A stretch of DNA of 45,213 nt from Sharpea azabuensis DSM 18934 (GTDB lineage: Bacteria; Bacillota_I; Bacilli_A; Erysipelotrichales; Coprobacillaceae), in NCBI RefSeq assembly GCF_000702165.1, contig NZ_JNKU01000021.1, forward strand, positions 1 through 45,213, given 5' to 3'. The notes under the pieces are model-generated. The model was not told the origin of the DNA. It searched no databases and worked only from the letters and a program-made list of their open reading frames with translations. Shown piece by piece: positions 18,321-27,590 of the stretch. Positions within the stretch are counted from its first letter, which is position 1, and each line of letters begins with the position of its first letter. The position numbers and the translations under genes were made by a program.

Positions 18321-20111
18321 TTATTCAATTCTTTCAAAATCACTAGCGCCATGCTTACATAATGGACATACAAAGTCTTCAGGTAATTCATCACCTTCAT
18401 AAACATAACCACAAACCTTACATACCCAGCCTTTCTTGCCAGCTGTTTCTGGTTTTGGTTTAACATGATCCTGATAATAAGTATATGTCATTGTTGGCAC
18501 TTTAGAAAGCACACGTGCTTCTTCAACTGTACAGATGTACATATGATGACTGCCAATATCAAGCTTGTTTTCAACCTTTAAGCTGATTACTGCGTTGATA
18601 TACTGTGGGAGGATGGCTAAGCCATTATCAGTACGATGGAACTTCATATTTTCAAACTTGTTGACAGCTCTACCAGACTGGAAGCCATACTGCTTGAAGA
18701 CTTCAAATGGTGCTTCTGTTGAAAGACAGTTGATATTCATGATGCCTGTCTTATCAATGATATGATCTGTGTAGTTCTTCTTGTTGATGCATACAGCAAC
18801 TCTTGTTGGGCTATCAGCTACCTGGCTGACTGTGTTGACAATACAGCCATTGTCCATCTTGCCATCATTTGTCGTCACGACATAAAGACCATAACCTAAT
18901 CTAAAGAGGGCTGTCATATCATTCTTGTTGGCTGTATCACTCGCTCCAACATATTCAGAACATAAATCGGATGCAAGAGCTTCAAGCTGTTTTGAACTTG
19001 TTTCATTAAGGGCTGACATGATATGCACAACATTTTCATTAAGATTGATATTCTTGAGTGTTGATAATTTCTTGATGATGACTTTAGCTGCCTGTGGAGC
19101 CCAAGTTCCATTTTCAATAATACCAATCGTCTTATTCTGATAGTTACGTTCAACTAAATGATCAATGAATTCATTCATGAATGGGAAAATATCAGCATTA
19201 TATGTCGTTGTCGCAAGGACAAGCTTACCATAGGCAAAAGCATCTGCCACAGCTTCACTCATGTCACAGCGTGCTAAGTCATAGACTTTCACATCAGGAC
19301 ATTGATTGGCTTTTAATAAATTGACAAGCTTTTCAACAGCTGCCTTAGTATGGCCATAAACACTTGTATAAGCAATCATGACACCTTCTTTTTCTGTTTC
19401 ATAACCGCTCCACTTCGTATAGAGGTCAAGATAATAGCCAAGCTTTTCCTTTAAGACAGGACCATGCAATGGGGCAATAATCTGAATATCAAGATCAGCT
19501 GCTTTCTTCAAGACATTTGTCACCTGCATACCATATTTACCAACAATGCCAATATAGTATCTTCTGCCTTCACTTTCCCAGTCTTCTTCAACATCCTGTG
19601 CACCAAATTTACCAAAGGCATCAGCCGAGAATAAGACCTTGTCAGTTGCATCATATGTAAACATAACTTCTGGCCAGTGAACCATTGGGGCAAAGACGAA
19701 TGTCAGCTGATGATGACCTAAATCAAGTGTTCCACCATTTTCAACAACTAATCTCTTTGGGGCAATATCATTTCCAAAGAACTGTTCCATCATTTTAAAT
19801 GTCTTGGCATTACCAACAACAGTAGCTTCTGGATAAACTTCCAAGAAGTTCTTAATATTAGCTGAATGGTCTGGTTCCATATGTTGTACAACAAGATAAT
19901 CTGGTTTCTTATCTCCGAGTGTACTCGCAATATTATCGAGCCATTCATGTTTGAAATTCTGGTCTACTGTATCCATGACAAGAACCTTGTCATCGTCAAT
20001 GATATATGAGTTGTAGCACATACCATGAGGGACCTTATACTGACCTTCAAATAGATCTATCTTATGGTCATTCACACCTACATAATAGATACTATCAGTT
20101 ACTTTATACAT
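18321..20111 (-). CDS. Flavodiiron oxygen/NO reductase fused to flavin reductase and rubredoxin
   Basis: A 596-aa four-module protein for reducing O2 to water (or NO to N2O) in anaerobes. Order: metallo-beta-lactamase-like di-iron domain (about 1-245; ligand motif HMEPDHSANI), flavodoxin domain binding FMN (about 250-390; MIAYTSVYGHTKAAVE), a flavin-reductase-like split-barrel domain (about 400-535; NTVSQVADSPTRVAVCINKKNYT), and a C-terminal rubredoxin (CKVCGYVYEGDELPEDFVCPLC, two CxxC). Together the modules make a near self-contained electron chain from NAD(P)H to the di-iron site. AGGAGG precedes the start; a strong terminator follows. Family known; whether O2 or NO is the main substrate is not. 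Confidence 0.93.
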   Translation of the reverse strand: MYKVTDSIYYVGVNDHKIDLFEGQYKVPHGMCYNSYIIDDDKVLVMDTVDQNFKHEWLDNIASTLGDKKPDYLVVQHMEPDHSANIKNFLEVYPEATVVGNAKTFKMMEQFFGNDIAPKRLVVENGGTLDLGHHQLTFVFAPMVHWPEVMFTYDATDKVLFSADAFGKFGAQDVEEDWESEGRRYYIGIVGKYGMQVTNVLKKAADLDIQIIAPLHGPVLKEKLGYYLDLYTKWSGYETEKEGVMIAYTSVYGHTKAAVEKLVNLLKANQCPDVKVYDLARCDMSEAVADAFAYGKLVLATTTYNADIFPFMNEFIDHLVERNYQNKTIGIIENGTWAPQAAKVIIKKLSTLKNINLNENVVHIMSALNETSSKQLEALASDLCSEYVGASDTANKNDMTALFRLGYGLYVVTTNDGKMDNGCIVNTVSQVADSPTRVAVCINKKNYTDHIIDKTGIMNINCLSTEAPFEVFKQYGFQSGRAVNKFENMKFHRTDNGLAILPQYINAVISLKVENKLDIGSHHMYICTVEEARVLSKVPTMTYTYYQDHVKPKPETAGKKGWVCKVCGYVYEGDELPEDFVCPLCKHGASDFERIE

Positions 20112-20195
20112 AGTAAAACTTCCTCCTTTTAATACCTACCCTATATCTTAAAGTAAGCTCTTTCTTTTTACAATCAGTATAACTCATTTTTTCAC

Positions 20196-20233
20196 AAAAA
20201 AGAGATTTCAAAATCAATAGACCTCAAAATCTC
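20196..20233 (-). terminator. Probable terminator of the Cys-rich small gene
   Basis: On the minus strand GAGATTT (20227-20233) pairs with AAATCTC (20202-20208) across an 18-nt loop and is followed by six T. The long loop makes it weaker than its neighbours, so some read-through into the flavodiiron gene is possible. Confidence 0.55.
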
Positions 20234-20240
20234 CTTTTCC

Positions 20241-20465
20241 TTATCTTCCTCTTACAAACATACGACTTACAAAAGCCATGTTGATCTCTTTGATTTCACG
20301 TTTTCCATCAATATAGTCACGATACATATCAAAAGGATCTCCAGCCCCAAACACCCCACATCCTGAGCAGTTTTCACAACCTGCTGAATCATCACAATTC
20401 AATGCTTCCTGAATGATCTTGAGACGTTCTTCTCTTGTCGTATCTTTAATGAGTGTACTTTTCAT
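20241..20465 (-). CDS. Small Cys-rich protein of unknown function
   Basis: A 74-aa soluble protein (MKSTLIKDTTREERLKII onward) that I do not recognise. It contains a tight Cys cluster, NCDDSAGCENCSGCGV, with four Cys (pattern Cx5Cx2Cx2C) near residues 22-32. This is suited to a zinc or iron-sulfur site. A conserved-looking C-terminal half follows (DPFDMYRDYIDGKREIKEINMAF). Start: the longer frame at 20489 begins inside the predicted -10 box, so it is rejected; 20465 (AGGGTG 6 nt upstream) or 20471 remain. It has its own promoter and lies between the SDR and flavodiiron genes, which hints at a redox or metal role. Confidence 0.75.
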   Translation of the reverse strand: MKSTLIKDTTREERLKIIQEALNCDDSAGCENCSGCGVFGAGDPFDMYRDYIDGKREIKEINMAFVSRMFVRGR

Positions 20466-20487
20466 ATCCATCACCCTACCTACCATC

Positions 20488-20516
20488 ATACTAGTTCAGT
20501 AGGTTGTTGATGTCAA
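20488..20516 (-). promoter_or_regulatory. Promoter of the Cys-rich small gene, with overlapping inverted repeat
   Basis: Minus strand: TTGACA (-35, 20511-20516), 17-bp spacer, TAGTAT (-10, 20488-20493). The -10 region is flanked by CCTAC (20477-20481) and GTAGG (20500-20504), a 5-bp-arm inverted repeat that could be an operator. Confidence 0.55.
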
Positions 20517-20543
20517 AGAAAACACTTTATAAGATGAAAAGTT

Positions 20544-21305
20544 CTAAAGCATGCTTGTCATGCCACCATCAACAACAAGCAGCTGTCCTGTTGTATAGGT
20601 GCAGGCGTCACTCGCAAAGTAAATAAGTGCGCCATTCATTTCACCCTCACGGCCAAATCTCTTGAGGGCGACACGGTTCTTAAGGACTAATGAACCAGGT
20701 GCATCCAAAGCGTCATGAGTCATTTCTGTGTCATAGACACCAGGAGCAATCGCATTGACAAGAATATTATATGGTGCTAAATCTCCAGCCATGGCCTTTG
20801 TCAGATTGACAACACCGCCCTTAGCGGCAAAGTAGCTCACTTGTGATGGACCAGCCTGAATACCGCCTACTGAAGCAATATTGATAATACGTCCATATTT
20901 CTGCTTCATCATGACTTTTGAAACTTCACGTCCCATCAAGAACACACCCTTAAGATCCGTATTGAGTACTTTGTCCCATTGAGCTGTTGTATGATCACTT
21001 AAACCACTTGAATATTCCACAACACCAGCATTATTGACAAGAATATCAATATGGCCAAAATAATCTGCCACTTCTTTAACTGCCTGGCAAATACTTTCTT
21101 CATTTGTGACATCACAAGTTACCGCTAGGCAATCATGGCCATTTTTCTTCAATTCTTCAGCAAGCTTTTCAAGACGTTCTTTTCTTCTTGCGAGAATGGC
21201 AACATCACAGCCCTGTTCGCTTAAAGCTGTCGCAAATTGTCTGCCTAAGCCGCTTGATGCGCCTGTTACAATGGCAACTTTGCCTGTTAAATCAAATGTA
21301 ATCAT
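20544..21305 (-). CDS. Short-chain dehydrogenase/reductase
   Basis: A 253-aa classical SDR using NAD(P)H. It has the cofactor motif TGASSGLG (about 15-22), NNAG, the catalytic Ser in NIASVGG, and the YxxxK pair in SYFAAKGG (about 157-164); the PG motif is in IAPGVYDTEMT. Closest in style to gluconate-5-dehydrogenase, 3-oxoacyl-ACP reductase and hydroxysteroid dehydrogenases; the substrate is undecided. GAGGG precedes the start, 9 nt after the stop of the Fe-S flavoenzyme, so the two form one unit under the TetR-controlled promoter. Confidence 0.92.
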   Translation of the reverse strand: MITFDLTGKVAIVTGASSGLGRQFATALSEQGCDVAILARRKERLEKLAEELKKNGHDCLAVTCDVTNEESICQAVKEVADYFGHIDILVNNAGVVEYSSGLSDHTTAQWDKVLNTDLKGVFLMGREVSKVMMKQKYGRIINIASVGGIQAGPSQVSYFAAKGGVVNLTKAMAGDLAPYNILVNAIAPGVYDTEMTHDALDAPGSLVLKNRVALKRFGREGEMNGALIYFASDACTYTTGQLLVVDGGMTSML

Positions 21306-21314
21306 ATTATCCCT

Positions 21315-23231
21315 CTATTCCATAATGCGGATGGCATGATAAGCTTCATGGACCGCTGTTAATATTTTTCTTGGTGCAACTGCATCACCGATAATGGCAA
21401 CATCTTCATATTTTTCTTCAAGAAGATCTTCAAGTTCATTATTTGGTTTAAAGCCAACAGCATTAAGAACAGTATCACATTCTAGTGTGATTTTCTGACC
21501 ATCTCTTTCAAATGTTACACTTGTAGGTGTGATATTTGTGACTTTCGCATTTGTTTCTTTTTTAACACCGCGATCTTTGATCATCTTTCTTAAATGTTGA
21601 TCATTATTAAGGCAATGATTAGCGGTATAAAGAATATCTGGACACATTTCTACCAAAGTCACATCGCCACCCTTACCAGCAATATCACATGCTGCTTCAC
21701 TGCCAGCTAAACCAGCACCAATAACAACAACTTTCTTTCCGACAGTTGCCTGATGTGTCAAATAATCACTAGCTAGAACTGTTGTTTCAATGCCAGGAAC
21801 AGGAGGCTTAGCAGGTGTTGAACCTGTAGCAAGAATGACTTTATCGTATCCTTCAGGAAGATTATCCGCTGATATTGGTGTGGATAGATGCACATTAACA
21901 TCAAGTTTTTGACACTGTGTTTTTAGGTAGTCAATAAGCTTGAGTACATCAGCCTTGAAATCAGGTCCACCAGCAGCCCATAAAGTACCACCTAGTCTAT
22001 CTTCTTTTTCATAAAGATCAACATCAAAGCCACGGCGTCTTGCGGTTATGGCTGCCATCATGCCACCAGGACCACCGCCAATAACAAGTACTTTACGTTT
22101 TAAGCCATTTGGCTTTGGAAGAGCATAGGCTTTTTCGGCATAACATAATGGATTGACAGCACAATAATAATGCTTGCCACTAAAGCCGGATAATAGACAT
22201 TCATTACAGCCCACACATGGTGCAATATCTTCAGGATGTCCAGCTTTTACTTTCTTTGGCCAATAAGGATCAGCAAGCATCTGATGCGCTAGGCCAACAT
22301 AATCCAAGATACCATCTTCAATAGCTTTCTTGGCTACCTCTGGATCTTTTAAATTACCATCACCTAACACTGGAACACTGACGACATCTTTAATGGCCTT
22401 TTGGACATCAAGCTTAAATCCTGGCTTGCTGTAGACTGTAGTAATAGCCTGGAACCATTCTTCATAGCAGCCTGTATCAACATGAAGGGCATCAACACCA
22501 GCCTTTTCAAGAATTTTTGCCATTTCAATGCCTTCATCGATTGTTCTAAAGCCTTCAACTCTCTGATGAGGTGTGAATTTCACAAGCAGTGGCATATTGG
22601 CAGGAATATTCTTTCTAATCGCATCAATACATTCTAATGTGAAACGCATTCTATTTTCCAACGATCCACCATATTCATCCGTTCTATTATTCCATTGAAC
22701 TGAATGGAACTGATCTAATAAATATCCACCATATGCATGTAATTCAACACAATCAGCCCCCGCATTAACAGCTAGCGAGGCACTATAGCCAATCTTTTCA
22801 ACTAAGTAATGAATATCATCTTTAGAGAATGGCTTACAGATTAAATTTGGAAACCAGAAAGCAGGTACACTGCCGGCACTATAAGGTGGTGTAAATGGAT
22901 CAGTAAACTGCTGTCTGCCTAGTCCTGGAGAGAGCTGTACGCATACCTTTGCCCCATAGGCATGACATCTCTCGATAAGCATATTGAGTCGTTCCACATG
23001 ATGGAAATCAGATAGCTCTGTACATGGTCTTGGTTCAAACTTCGTAGAAACAACATTTGCCCCGGTTATAATAAGACCAGCCCCACCTTTTGCACGTTCT
23101 TCAAAATAATCGATACCCTCATTACAATAGGCACCATCAGCCTCTCCTGTCGTTCCCATTGGTGACATGAAGATTCTGTTCTTTAGTTTCATCTTACCAA
23201 TATAGGTTTTGTCAAATAAACTTCTTGCCAT
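21315..23231 (-). CDS. Fe-S flavoenzyme of the 2,4-dienoyl-CoA reductase / BaiCD-BaiH family
   Basis: A 638-aa NAD(P)H:flavin oxidoreductase. Residues about 1-340 form an old-yellow-enzyme TIM barrel binding FMN (SPMGTTGEADG; ELHAYGGYLLDQF; RTDEYGGSLENR). A [4Fe-4S] motif follows (CVGCNECLLSGFSG, then YCAVNP; Cx2Cx2Cx11C). The C-terminal FAD/NAD half has VIGGGPGGMMAA (about 383) and VIGAGLAGSEAA. Relatives reduce C=C bonds conjugated to a carbonyl: dienoyl-CoA, enoates, or 3-oxo-delta4/6 steroid intermediates (BaiCD, BaiH). Length equals BaiCD, but sequence alone does not decide the substrate. GGAGG precedes the start; promoter and operator lie upstream. Confidence 0.93.
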   Translation of the reverse strand: MARSLFDKTYIGKMKLKNRIFMSPMGTTGEADGAYCNEGIDYFEERAKGGAGLIITGANVVSTKFEPRPCTELSDFHHVERLNMLIERCHAYGAKVCVQLSPGLGRQQFTDPFTPPYSAGSVPAFWFPNLICKPFSKDDIHYLVEKIGYSASLAVNAGADCVELHAYGGYLLDQFHSVQWNNRTDEYGGSLENRMRFTLECIDAIRKNIPANMPLLVKFTPHQRVEGFRTIDEGIEMAKILEKAGVDALHVDTGCYEEWFQAITTVYSKPGFKLDVQKAIKDVVSVPVLGDGNLKDPEVAKKAIEDGILDYVGLAHQMLADPYWPKKVKAGHPEDIAPCVGCNECLLSGFSGKHYYCAVNPLCYAEKAYALPKPNGLKRKVLVIGGGPGGMMAAITARRRGFDVDLYEKEDRLGGTLWAAGGPDFKADVLKLIDYLKTQCQKLDVNVHLSTPISADNLPEGYDKVILATGSTPAKPPVPGIETTVLASDYLTHQATVGKKVVVIGAGLAGSEAACDIAGKGGDVTLVEMCPDILYTANHCLNNDQHLRKMIKDRGVKKETNAKVTNITPTSVTFERDGQKITLECDTVLNAVGFKPNNELEDLLEEKYEDVAIIGDAVAPRKILTAVHEAYHAIRIME

Positions 23232-23266
23232 AACGCTTCCTCCTTCATACCTTGGTAATCTTTTTC

Positions 23267-23280
23267 TTTACTCAAGTAAA
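23267..23280. promoter_or_regulatory. Palindromic operator at the reductase promoter (probable TetR site)
   Basis: TTTACT-CA-AGTAAA is a perfect inverted repeat touching the -10 box and covering the expected transcription start of the reductase-SDR unit. A second imperfect inverted repeat, TCACATGAACATGGTGA, lies at 23313-23329 upstream of the -35. The divergent TetR-family gene is the obvious binder. Confidence 0.6.
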
Positions 23281-23307
23281 TTATAGTTCAAAATTCCCTA
23301 TTGTCAA
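23280..23307 (-). promoter_or_regulatory. Consensus promoter of the reductase-SDR unit
   Basis: Minus strand: TTGACA (23302-23307), 16-bp spacer, TATAAT (23280-23285). Both hexamers are perfect consensus, fitting a strong promoter held down by a repressor. Confidence 0.8.
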
Positions 23308-23388
23308 TATATTCACATGAACATGGTGATTTTTTTAACAAATCTTCTTCATTCATTTGTGTTATAGTATGTATAAGGAGTTTAGTCT

Positions 23389-23973
23389 ATGAAAATCACA
23401 GCAGAAGAAATCAAACAAAAAGCAATTACGCTCTTTTTAGATAAAGGCTACAACAATGTGACAATTCAGGATATCTGTGACGAGCTGCATATCACAAAGC
23501 CTACTTTATATAAATGTGTCAGCTCGAAAGAAGACCTGATTTTAGATCTCTATGACCAGACGATTGAACAGCTAGTCAAAGATACTTATAAGCTCGTTGA
23601 TAGCGATAGTCATCTTGAACAACTACTTATCATTTTCTCCACCCTCATCAAGGAAACAAAGAAATATGGTTATGATCTATTTAGCCAAATGTTTATTGCG
23701 AATTTAAAAGAAAATAAAAGAAGCTTTGAAATGCGTGAAAGTCTTACAAAGCTATGCATAATCATCATTAAGAAAGCCCAGGTCAATGGGGAAATCCATA
23801 ATCATTCCTCATGTGAAACCCTCTACAAGGCTTTAGCTTATTGTTTTACAGGTTATGAAGTGATGTGGTGTATCAATAAGCAGTCTGGCTTTGATGAGGC
23901 TTTTTATTTAAGCATGAATGCCCTTCTTGATGTTGATGAACGCTATCAAGAATTATATAAACAGTTTCTTTAA
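23389..23973 (+). CDS. TetR-family transcriptional regulator
   Basis: A 194-aa repressor-type protein. The N-terminal HTH is typical of the family (VTIQDICDELHITKPTLYKC at about 25-44, then SSKEDLILDLYDQ), followed by an all-helical ligand-binding and dimerisation domain. AAGGAG precedes the start. It is divergent from the reductase-SDR unit across a 157-bp region with two inverted repeats, so it most likely represses that unit and itself and responds to the enzymes' substrate. A TATAGT -10 box lies at 23363-23368; no good -35 is visible. The gene ends in a TTCG-loop terminator. Confidence 0.92.
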   Translation: MKITAEEIKQKAITLFLDKGYNNVTIQDICDELHITKPTLYKCVSSKEDLILDLYDQTIEQLVKDTYKLVDSDSHLEQLLIIFSTLIKETKKYGYDLFSQMFIANLKENKRSFEMRESLTKLCIIIIKKAQVNGEIHNHSSCETLYKALAYCFTGYEVMWCINKQSGFDEAFYLSMNALLDVDERYQELYKQFL

Positions 23974-24044: not shown

Positions 24045-27000
24045 TTACTTAGCTGCTGCTGGATCGAGAGCCATAGCTTCTGCTCTTGCTCTACGACGTT
24101 TAGCATCAAGAAGACATTTTTCCATTAATGCATCAGCATGTTCTGGATTTACCTTATATAACTGAGAGAATCTGTTTTCAGTTAATAAGAAGTCTTTGAA
24201 CTTACTGAAGTCTGGAGCCTTAGAATCAATTTGTAATGGATCCTTGCCTTCTTCAGCAAGTCTTGGGTCATATCTTAATAAGTTAAAGTAACCACATTCA
24301 ACAGCAAGTTTTTCCTGTCTATCACTATTAGCTAAGCCACCCTTAATGTGCTGTTCTGTACATGGAGAGTAAGCGATAATGAGTGAAGGACCATCATAGC
24401 TTTCAGCTTCCTTGAAGGCTTTAATTGCCTGCATTGGATTAGCTGCTAATGAAATCTGAGCTACATAAACATGGCCATATGCCATAGCAATCTGAGCTAA
24501 GTCCTTCTTAGCCACTTTCTTACCTGAAGCTGTGAATTTAGCGATAGATGCAGCCTGTGATGACTTAGAAGACTGTCCACCAGTATTTGAATACATTTCT
24601 GTATCAAGTACTAAGACATTGACATTCTGGTCGTTGGCAAGAACATGGTCTAATCCACCATATCCGATATCATAAGCCCAGCCATCACCACCGATAATCC
24701 ACTGGCTCTTAGTAACTAAGTCAGCTTTCATATCAAGTAATTTCTTCAAGCCTTCAACCTGAGTCTTTTCTAATGCGGCAACAACATCATCATAAAGTTC
24801 AGCTTCTTTTTCACGCTGACCCTTAACAGCTTCATACTTTTCAAGTACTTCCTTGACATCTGCTTCTGCATCATTCTTATTAGCTTCAATCGTTTCAAGA
24901 ATGAATTTAGCTTTATAGTTTTCAGCTAATTTCATACCAAAGCCATATTCAGCATTATCTTCGAATAATGAGTTAGCCCAAGCTGGACCGAAGCCCTTCT
25001 TGTCTGTTGTCATTGGAGTTGATGGACATGAACCACAATAGATTGAAGAACATCCAGTTGCGTTCGCAATTCTCATATCCTGACCGAATAACTGAGAAGC
25101 TAAACGATAGTATGGAGCTTCACCACAGCCGGCACATGCACCACTTGCTTCAAAGTAAGGTTTTCTGAAGCCAACACCCTTAACAGTATTAGCCATAGGA
25201 CCTTTGAATAAGTCACTTCTGTATTCAGCATTTTCATACATCCAGTAAGCTAAATCACCATGTGATAATTCTTCCTTAACAGGAACCATTGTTAAGGCCT
25301 TTTCGCCCTTCTTACCTGGACATACCTGAGCACATAATGTACAGCCTACACAGTTATCAGGAGAAACCTGAATTCTGAATGATAAGCCATCTGCACCCTT
25401 AACACCCATTGGTTTTAAGACATCATTGCTGATATCTTCTGGTGCGTTCTTGATTTCGTCTTCACTTAATAAGAATGCACGGATTGTCGCATGAGGACAT
25501 ACCATGACACACTGAGTACACTGGATACAGTTATCTTTATTCCATTTTGGAACACTTACGGCAATACCACGACGTTCTTTTAAGGCCATGCCATTCTTCA
25601 TTGTACCATCTAACTTATCCAAGAAGGCACTTGTAGGTAAGTCATCACCAGTTAAGCCATCGATTGGTGTTACATAGTTATCGAAGTAGTCATCACCTGT
25701 TGGTGCATGCATTGCATTGACTTCAAGATCAGCCCATGCAGGATCAACTTCAACTTCAACCATCTTATCCTTACCAGCATCAATAGCCTGGTAGTTGCTT
25801 TCAACAATTGCATCACCCTTAGAACCATAAGACTTCTTAGCTGCTTCTTTCATTAAGCGGATTGCTTCATCAAGAGGCAAGATGTTCTGGTTCAAAGCGA
25901 AGAATGCTGACTGAAGAATTGTATTTGTATGTCTGCCCATATGGCATTCTTCAGCTAACTTTGTTGCATCGATAATATAGAGTTTAGCATGCTTTTCTGC
26001 TAATTGTTTCTTTACTCTATTTGGTAAGTAATTTGCAACTTCATCCTTAGAGAATGATGTATTCAACAAGAATGTACCACCATCTTTTAAGTTACGTAAC
26101 ATGTCATATTTAAAGACATAGTTGTCAACCGAACATGAGATAAAGTCAGCACGGTTAATATAATATGTTGAACGAATTGGTGTAGGACCAAATCTTAAGT
26201 TAGAGCGTGTTGCCCCACCTGACTTCTTAGAGTCATAAGCAAAATATGCCTGACAATATAAATTAGTATTATCACCAATAATCTTGATTGATGACTTGTT
26301 GGCAGAAACAGTACCATCACTACCTAAACCATAGAATAAGCACTGTGTAGCGTCAGTCTTAACTTTGAATGAGCTATCGACTGGTAATGATAAATGTGTT
26401 ACATCATCAACAATACCAATTGTAAATGGATGCTGTGGCTTATCCTTAGCTAAGTTATCAAATACAGCCTTACAATCCTTAGCAGTTGTATCCTTAGAAC
26501 CTAAGCCATAACGACCACCAATGATTTCAATATTCTTATCTTTCAATACTTCTACGACATCCAAGTATAATGGTTCACCAGTAGAACCCATTTCCTTAGT
26601 ACGATCTAGTACCGCAATCTTCTTAACTGATGCTGGTAAGACGTCAAGTAAGTATTTAGCAGAGAATGGACGGTATAAGTGAACCTTAATTAAACCAACC
26701 TTTTCTCCCTGTTCATTTAATGTATCAACAACTTCTTCAATTGTCTGAGTGACTGAACCCATGGCAATAATGATTCTGTCAGCTTCTGGATCACCGTAGT
26801 AAACAAATGGAGCATATTGACGACCAGTGATTTCAGAAATCTTCTTCATGTAATCAGCTGTGATATCAGCAATATCTTCATAATGTTTATTCTGTGCTTC
26901 ACGGCTCTGGAAATAAACGTCATCATTTGTAGCTGAACCACGTGTTACAGGATTAAGATGTGGGTTAAGCTGTCTGTTCTTGAATGCCTTTAAAGCATCC

Positions 27001-27590
27001 CAGTCGAGAAGACTACCCAATGTCTCATAATCCATAACTTCGACTTTCTGAATTTCATGTGATGTTCTAAAACCATCAAAGAAGTGCATAACTGGAACTG
27101 AAGCTTTGATAGCTACTAAGTGAGCAATACCACCTAAGTCCATAACTTCCTGAACTGAGTGAGAACATAACATTACGATACCTGTCTGACGACAAGCATA
27201 AACATCCTGATGATCACCAAAGATGTTTAATGATGATGTAGCTAAAGCACGTGCAGCTACATGGAATACACCTGGTAATAATTCACCTTGAATTTTATAT
27301 AGGTTAGGAATCATTAACAGTAAACCCTGAGATGCAGTAAATGTTGTTGCAAGAGCACCACCCTGAAGTGCACCATGAACAGCACCTGCAGCACCAGCTT
27401 CTGACTGCATTTCAATGACATTGACTGATGAGCCAAAGATGTTCTTCTGACCTTTTGAAGCCCATTCTTCAGCATGTTCTGCCATTGGAGAAGATGGTGT
27501 AATTGGATAGATTGCAGCTACTTCACTAAATGCATAAGCAACGTGAGCGGCAGCTGTATTACCATCCATTGATAAATATTTTTTTGCCAT
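24045..27590 (-). CDS. nifJ: Pyruvate:ferredoxin (flavodoxin) oxidoreductase
   Basis: A 1181-aa single-chain PFOR that oxidises pyruvate to acetyl-CoA and CO2 and passes electrons to ferredoxin or flavodoxin, the main pyruvate exit in anaerobes. Domains in order: pyrimidine-binding domain I (DGNTAAAHVAYAFSEVAAIYPITPSSP at the N-terminus), domains II-III, two [4Fe-4S] ferredoxin motifs near residues 685-760 (CIQCTQCVMVCPH and CVGCTLCAQVCPG), a third cluster region with CAGCGE, and the thiamine-PP domain (GGDGWAYDIGYGGLDH, then DTEMYSNTGGQ). AGGAGG lies 9 nt before the start. It has a strong own promoter and terminator, so it is monocistronic. Confidence 0.98.
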   Translation of the reverse strand: MAKKYLSMDGNTAAAHVAYAFSEVAAIYPITPSSPMAEHAEEWASKGQKNIFGSSVNVIEMQSEAGAAGAVHGALQGGALATTFTASQGLLLMIPNLYKIQGELLPGVFHVAARALATSSLNIFGDHQDVYACRQTGIVMLCSHSVQEVMDLGGIAHLVAIKASVPVMHFFDGFRTSHEIQKVEVMDYETLGSLLDWDALKAFKNRQLNPHLNPVTRGSATNDDVYFQSREAQNKHYEDIADITADYMKKISEITGRQYAPFVYYGDPEADRIIIAMGSVTQTIEEVVDTLNEQGEKVGLIKVHLYRPFSAKYLLDVLPASVKKIAVLDRTKEMGSTGEPLYLDVVEVLKDKNIEIIGGRYGLGSKDTTAKDCKAVFDNLAKDKPQHPFTIGIVDDVTHLSLPVDSSFKVKTDATQCLFYGLGSDGTVSANKSSIKIIGDNTNLYCQAYFAYDSKKSGGATRSNLRFGPTPIRSTYYINRADFISCSVDNYVFKYDMLRNLKDGGTFLLNTSFSKDEVANYLPNRVKKQLAEKHAKLYIIDATKLAEECHMGRHTNTILQSAFFALNQNILPLDEAIRLMKEAAKKSYGSKGDAIVESNYQAIDAGKDKMVEVEVDPAWADLEVNAMHAPTGDDYFDNYVTPIDGLTGDDLPTSAFLDKLDGTMKNGMALKERRGIAVSVPKWNKDNCIQCTQCVMVCPHATIRAFLLSEDEIKNAPEDISNDVLKPMGVKGADGLSFRIQVSPDNCVGCTLCAQVCPGKKGEKALTMVPVKEELSHGDLAYWMYENAEYRSDLFKGPMANTVKGVGFRKPYFEASGACAGCGEAPYYRLASQLFGQDMRIANATGCSSIYCGSCPSTPMTTDKKGFGPAWANSLFEDNAEYGFGMKLAENYKAKFILETIEANKNDAEADVKEVLEKYEAVKGQREKEAELYDDVVAALEKTQVEGLKKLLDMKADLVTKSQWIIGGDGWAYDIGYGGLDHVLANDQNVNVLVLDTEMYSNTGGQSSKSSQAASIAKFTASGKKVAKKDLAQIAMAYGHVYVAQISLAANPMQAIKAFKEAESYDGPSLIIAYSPCTEQHIKGGLANSDRQEKLAVECGYFNLLRYDPRLAEEGKDPLQIDSKAPDFSKFKDFLLTENRFSQLYKVNPEHADALMEKCLLDAKRRRARAEAMALDPAAAK

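Follow-up and report, generated by a model that had tools for sequence, protein, structure and literature searches.

The locus analysed here, in Sharpea azabuensis, raises the question of whether a 74 aa, cysteine-rich open reading frame (ORF) beside a flavodiiron gene is a genuine gene, and, if it is, whether its product serves the neighbouring enzyme or belongs to a wider system. The ORF lies on the minus strand at 20241-20465, with its ATG start at 20465, in the window, meaning the whole 45,213 nt stretch of DNA that was studied.

The miniprotein gene and its likely expression signals

The ORF had been picked out in a sequence-only reading of this DNA, together with its cluster of four cysteines (C24, C30, C33 and C36; C-x5-C-x2-C-x2-C), and both were borne out by comparisons with relatives. 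A Sharpea porci protein is 99% identical to the miniprotein, and those of G016, G017 and an Erysipelotrichaceae record (RUG246) are 85-89% identical. The window gene differs from that of S. porci at 11 of 44.5 synonymous sites and 1 of 171.5 nonsynonymous sites, corresponding to a dN/dS of ~0.02, and comparisons with RUG246, G017 and G016 gave dN values of 0.095-0.154 and dS values of 1.27-2.12. Hence the near-identical S. porci protein, the further relatives and codons under strong purifying selection establish that this is a real gene, rather than a chance ORF. The same genome also encodes a 64 aa type C relative (C60:8759-8953), and another that forms the C-terminal domain of a 236 aa ORF (on C15).

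The sigma-70-like promoter previously claimed for this gene, TTGACA-17-TAGTAT (20488-20516, minus strand; 10 of 12 matches), is present, and conserved in Sharpea. It is among the two best promoter-like sites within 19000-22500, a region in which 15 such sites were seen and 11.1 were expected, a count near that expected by chance. S. porci and G001, whose gene copies are identical to each other and therefore constitute a single observation, have exactly this site, while G017 has a related sequence, TTTACT-17-TACTAT, at the same position (by eye). A promoter upstream of the miniprotein gene is therefore likely. The CCTAC..GTAGG inverted repeat around the -10 element (20479-20503, without strand) exists as described, and its pattern is expected just 0.08 times per window, for a repeat picked after the fact. 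By eye, S. porci retains the repeat, RUG246 has an imperfect copy and G017 has none; given this lack of conservation beyond the Sharpea lineage, there is no support for an operator.

A 20-pair hairpin with a U run, a probable terminator, separates the miniprotein and flavodiiron genes (20196-20239, minus strand). The first 64 nt past the miniprotein's stop codon were predicted to fold at -21.5 kcal/mol (z -6.3), with none of 200 shuffles as good, and the equivalent S. porci stretch likewise folds into a hairpin, despite its diverged sequence (-19 kcal/mol, z -4.7). A simple terminator scan of the region detected no terminator, probably because the U run sits within the stem. Hence the idea that a weak terminator permits read-through into the flavodiiron gene is contradicted by the strong predicted hairpin in both species.

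The adjoining flavodiiron gene

The flavodiiron protein gene (18321-20111, minus strand), a neighbour outside the system described below, encodes a fusion of four parts: a metallo-beta-lactamase core, a flavodoxin-like part (with a Flavodoxin_5 match just below its cut-off), and C-terminal flavin-reductase-like and rubrerythrin/rubredoxin-like domains. It probably belongs to one of the fusion classes of such enzymes that have received less study. One source describes direct electron acceptance as possible for flavodiiron classes C and F, through fused reductase modules, with a flavin-reductase-like module also predicted in classes G and H (PMC6033852). As the window's enzyme has flavin-reductase-like and rubredoxin-like domains of its own, it has no obvious need of an external carrier.

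The miniprotein had nevertheless been proposed to act as a dedicated electron carrier, metal sensor or maturation factor of this enzyme, and the two genes are adjacent in both the window and S. porci. However, with the window's flavodiiron protein as the query, such a gene was found within five visible genes of 1 of 104 ORFs of the miniprotein's type (type A, defined below), with all five ORFs on both sides visible for 66 of the 104, and a mean of 8.9 of 10 neighbours visible. The exception was S. porci, the one case of adjacency in the sampled loci beyond the window's own lineage; the type A genes of G016 and G017 have other neighbours. Similarly, 241 of 250 genomes have a match to the ODP family (230 over the cut-off), yet five of the nine without one still carry the miniprotein family (p 0.14 for any difference), a comparison that concerns the metallo-beta-lactamase-like core domain rather than the exact enzyme, and in which draft genomes may miss the gene. 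Rubredoxin-like motifs within four genes of the family amounted to one 116 aa zinc-ribbon-like ORF (L190). The family therefore shows no dependence on flavodiiron genes, and, with a strong hairpin also lying between the two genes, the miniprotein seems not to be linked to the adjoining enzyme; a dedicated role in its function is highly improbable.

An undescribed family of small helical proteins

The window protein belongs, as type A, to an unnamed and undescribed family of helical proteins, 60-80 residues long, found here and there among anaerobes of the gut and rumen. The same predicted helical scaffold is common to its four types: types A and C have four cysteines, type B has CxxC and type B0 has no CxxC. 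The spacing in type C is usually C-x3-C-x2-C-x2-C, while that in type A is 3-2-2, 4-2-2 or 5-2-2. There were 226 family ORFs in 152 loci (L030-L121 and L172-L231, leaving out L001-L029 and L122-L171), all 152 of which held a member: 104 of type A, 76 of type C, 29 of type B and 17 of type B0. As the types were assigned by their cysteine motifs, the presence of four cysteines in all 104 type A ORFs would be a circular observation, and two rows assigned to type C (L183 and L188) resemble type A or B outside the loop.

Relatives were found in 7 of 40 genomes related to that of the window, and in 77 of 250 genomes from the bacterial family, Lachnospiraceae by name, that includes G403, in which the Pseudobutyrivibrio ruminis locus L103 lies, one of the 77 through a 24-residue match only. 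Two phylum-level draws, with up to 15 candidates scored per genome, contained the family in at least 5 of 392 and at least 6 of 398 genomes. In a species-level collection, at least 553 of 593 pattern stretches were confirmed, from which the best 80 loci were kept; these are the closest matches to the window protein, and hence over-represent types A and C. Some genomes were sampled twice (e.g. L056 and L230, L087 and L215). Record titles among the best 80 include Butyrivibrio, Ruminococcus, Anaerovibrio, Olsenella and one contig titled Prevotella. Two Bacteroidales plasmids match the family, one of which was inspected and bears a type C relative.

Three unannotated fecal 'phage' scaffolds also contain relatives. 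By eye, one has recombinase-like ORFs (L032) and another ABC-permease- and sugar-enzyme-like ORFs (L033), and this gene content provides no evidence for a phage gene. In viral contigs there was one 37-residue match (L264), within a 195 aa ORF that looks unrelated apart from CENCSGC, and none for type C. Elsewhere, proteins of ~236-259 aa (L002:1477-2187, minus strand; L015:901-1677, plus strand) end in a fused family domain with one cysteine, and had no Pfam match at an E-value of 0.01.

This common and strongly conserved family has no significant match, by sequence or fold, in Pfam, NCBIfam or the PDB. The best E-values were 0.0033 in Pfam and 0.012 in NCBIfam, from alignment scans in which the cut-offs of individual members were not given, and the window protein's own hits fell below the cut-off. 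The Pfam family matching most members was CarS-like (21 of 82, best E-value 0.0034), with FeoB_associated weakly matched by 13 of 82. The predicted structure of type A had no PDB fold match; that of type C had two PDB matches at an E-value of 9.3 and six in a viral library at 4.5 or more, none of which was significant; and a VIA-align fold comparison found no match, with 2 and 7 chains aligned. Four peptide strings from the family were absent from the papers in the literature library that was searched.

A conserved scaffold around a variable loop

The conserved elements of the family are a TTREER helix and a Y-x-DYI-x-G-K-x-E-I-x-EIN helix pair, between which lies a variable loop, containing the four cysteines in types A and C, CxxC in type B, and acidic, cysteine-poor sequence in type B0. 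No variation is seen at R14, Y51 or G54 in 82 rows covering all types, and hence the scaffold is kept where the cysteines are lost; I6, T10, C30, C33 and I52 reach 90% across the same rows. AlphaFold models of both types showed helices around the loop; that of type A (pLDDT 75.5) was least certain in the cysteine loop, and that of type C was better (pLDDT 87). Types A and C are homologous (hhalign probability 99.1%). On a tree of 140 rows inferred without the loop, cysteine state required nine changes, and the four types 12 changes compared with 68.9 in shuffles, with type A needing seven and type C three. Resolution of the tree is poor (5 of 137 inner branches starred), so the cysteine types appear clustered on it, rather than being established as clades.

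Within types A and C, the cysteines are conserved. When loci were retrieved with peptide patterns free of cysteine, the best-matching ORF carried the four-cysteine motif in all of the best 80, as ranked by likeness to the window protein. This conservation makes the metal or Fe-S site previously suggested for the cluster plausible. The sequence-only reading had named two observations that would count against its interpretation, namely variable cysteines and homologues lacking a link with redox genes: such a link is indeed missing for the flavodiiron gene, whereas the conservation of the cysteines in types A and C stands.

Such a compact cluster, with four cysteines spanning 11-13 residues that are invariant in 22 type A and 17 type C aligned rows, could also suit a metallochaperone, or a small store of zinc, iron or copper. 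However, four cysteines would provide only a low capacity, and the frequent neighbour clusters listed show no metal transporter or cofactor-assembly gene, except for the NifB/NifS-like genes of one group of islands (by eye), making this function unlikely.

Gene pairs and neighbours

Gene calls around the loci came from a greedy longest-ORF script. Type A lies directly upstream of type C on the same strand for 65 of the 104 type A ORFs, with gaps of -13 to 21 nt, and an overlap of 4 nt in 14 of the 65 pairs; the adjacency holds for 50 of 87 distinct type A sequences. This tight coupling suggests that A and C work together where both are present. In Erysipelotrichaceae, the two are unlinked: G015, G019 and G022 carry type C alone, while in G016 type A is present and no type C was found.

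An HD-domain gene lies immediately upstream of type A for 32 of the 104 ORFs (23 of 87 distinct sequences), matching Pfam HD at E-values of 0.0006-0.0016, below that family's cut-off. This position would fit an antitoxin-like protein or a regulator of an HD enzyme, in which a small helical inhibitor binds its partner enzyme, whether with a VbhA-like shape or with the HD hydrolase as its target, and a VbhA family (PF18495) was weakly matched by 2 of 82 members (best E-value 0.048). However, the HD gene is present in 122 of 250 genomes of the P. ruminis genome's family, and shows no significant association with type A (13 of 20 type A genomes, scored as such at 84 bits or more, versus 109 of 230 others; p 0.16), nor was it found in the window genome or 24 of its relatives, G016 and G017 not being among the 24. 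Similarly, hhalign against four sequences that match VbhA, from the same bacterial family, gave a probability of 6%. Hence the genome-wide data do not support the HD-domain protein as a dedicated partner, nor do the profile comparisons support VbhA antitoxin identity; an inhibitory role of either kind is very unlikely.

A further 39 tightly coupled upstream genes, neither HD nor family members, are diverse. As judged by reading their starts, they include flavodoxin-, FMN-reductase-, Rrf2/IscR-, rhodanese- and NUDIX-like genes, and most are not redox enzymes. Some relatives are nevertheless coupled to redox genes. A type B gene overlaps by 4 nt the end of a flavodoxin-Fer4 fusion gene (L117:6096-7039, plus strand), and a type C gene directly follows a [FeFe]-hydrogenase-like gene in G019 (L119:7641-9347, minus strand), both neighbours being supported by Pfam; the gene coupled upstream of type C in G022 differs from that in G019 (L118:7678-8681, minus strand). 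Among the best 25 Pfam families, 88 neighbours of type B (from 108 ORFs) mainly matched GNAT families, and 89 neighbours of types A and C (from 114 ORFs, leaving out HD genes and S. porci neighbours, among others) matched GNAT, nitroreductase, ThiF, FMN reductase, rhodanese and Fer4. None of these A/C-neighbour families was among the best 25 for 81 control genes further away (from 89 drawn ORFs, 8 near locus ends being left out). Neither GNAT (6 of 89 near versus at most 1 of 81 in the control; Fisher p 0.12) nor nitroreductase (4 of 89 versus at most 1 of 81; Fisher p 0.37) was significantly enriched.

A pyruvate:ferredoxin oxidoreductase (PFOR) gene is present in the window (24045-27590, minus strand). 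A PFOR gene lies within five genes of type A in S. porci, and directly upstream of it in G016, while two PFOR-like ORFs are found 3-4 genes from the type B0 gene of L205. Between the PFOR and miniprotein genes of the window (20544-23973) are a TetR regulator, an OYE flavoenzyme resembling BaiCD or bilirubin reductase, with both matches below the NCBIfam cut-offs, and an SDR; as PFOR and type A are directly adjacent in G016, this cluster may have been inserted. A phosphofructokinase gene was also seen by eye close to PFOR, both in the window and in G016.

These neighbours raise the possibility that A and C serve as minimal Fe-S electron carriers, with a ferredoxin-like function for PFOR, hydrogenase, flavodoxin-type and other redox enzymes. 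Their C-x2-C-x2-C core would suit such a role, as would the weak matches to the N3 [4Fe-4S] region of NuoF that recur in three libraries: Pfam (NADH_4Fe-4S, PF10589; best E-value 0.007 in 3 of 82 members, cut-off 23.5 bits), NCBIfam (best 0.017 in 3 of 78 members) and the PDB (E-value 0.38). However, the NuoF match was not significant by hhalign (probabilities of 27% and 14%), and the fourth cysteine of NuoF lies ~40 residues downstream of the motif, rather than 2-5 residues upstream, as in types A and C. Furthermore, the unrelated CarS-like and FeoB_associated families match more members as weakly, the type B and B0 relatives lack the ligands, and most of the coupled genes are not redox enzymes. 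An electron carrier is therefore possible, if somewhat doubtful.

By eye, the A-C genes of ten loci (L044, L046, L061, L069, L077, L079, L080, L088, L095 and L104) lie in or near NifH/NifDK/NifB-type islands, several of which include sulfonate- or methionine-type ABC transporters, a Cys/Met lyase and LysR regulators. These islands are possibly a nitrogenase-like sulfur-scavenging system.

Discussion

Hence the miniprotein is a conserved gene product that belongs to a family extending well beyond its flavodiiron neighbour. The most likely explanation of its function, tentatively held, is that of an accessory factor of anaerobic metabolism, responsive to redox state or metal, which uses its conserved helices for docking, since loss or oxidation of its site would alter docking on partner enzymes. 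Firstly, the TTREER helix and the second helix pair would form a scaffold for docking or dimerisation. Secondly, the loop between the helices would be the variable element, serving as a sensor or cofactor site. Thirdly, the cysteine loop of types A and C would be a putative binding site for a metal or Fe-S cluster. Fourthly, A and C would act jointly where both are present. Counting against an accessory factor of this type, B and B0 exist without the full cluster, meaning that the four-cysteine site is not the family's common function; the neighbours are also diverse, and A and C are unlinked in Erysipelotrichaceae.

More doubtfully, A and C may constitute a two-protein module for sensing redox state or metal, in which a helical dock carries interchangeable loops (four-cysteine, CxxC or acidic), and the partners vary by genome. 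If so, this would be a hitherto unnamed adaptor-sensor family of gut and rumen anaerobes. Were the A-C pair to bind a redox-active or labile metal, it would represent a new small sensor or carrier in organisms with a central part in rumen and gut fermentation.

This putative redox- or metal-responsive accessory factor has features in common with several known systems. The N3 region of NuoF shares the C-x2-C-x2-C motif, with a G and a helix-G-helix stretch after it, and the recurrence of this match is suggestive of an Fe-S-like loop, rather than of homology. NuoF, however, is a large enzyme subunit, and membership of PF10589 is not supported, given the lack of a significant match and the wrong position of the fourth cysteine. 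VbhA-type antitoxins are of similar size, and by eye share a helix followed by a 'YI..G' or 'LIEK..G' helix pattern, but have no cysteine cluster. Whereas VbhA-like ORFs are followed by a Fic-like gene (by eye), none was seen directly beside the miniprotein family; Fic was absent among the best 25 families of the 88 type B and 89 type A/C neighbours, and in L030 a Fic gene is annotated at a distance of 2.3 kb.

Rubredoxin and the 2[4Fe-4S] ferredoxins are, like the miniprotein, small, cysteine-rich, redox-type proteins of anaerobes, although the spacing of their cysteines differs, and neither rubredoxin nor Fer4 families were among the Pfam matches of the family's members. Within the limits applied, ZAS anti-sigma proteins had no profile match in either Pfam or NCBIfam. 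Nevertheless, these proteins, such as RsrA, are small and helical, with an H/C-x3-C-x2-C metal loop that acts as a redox switch, and the miniprotein resembles them as a small helical protein with a cysteine loop.
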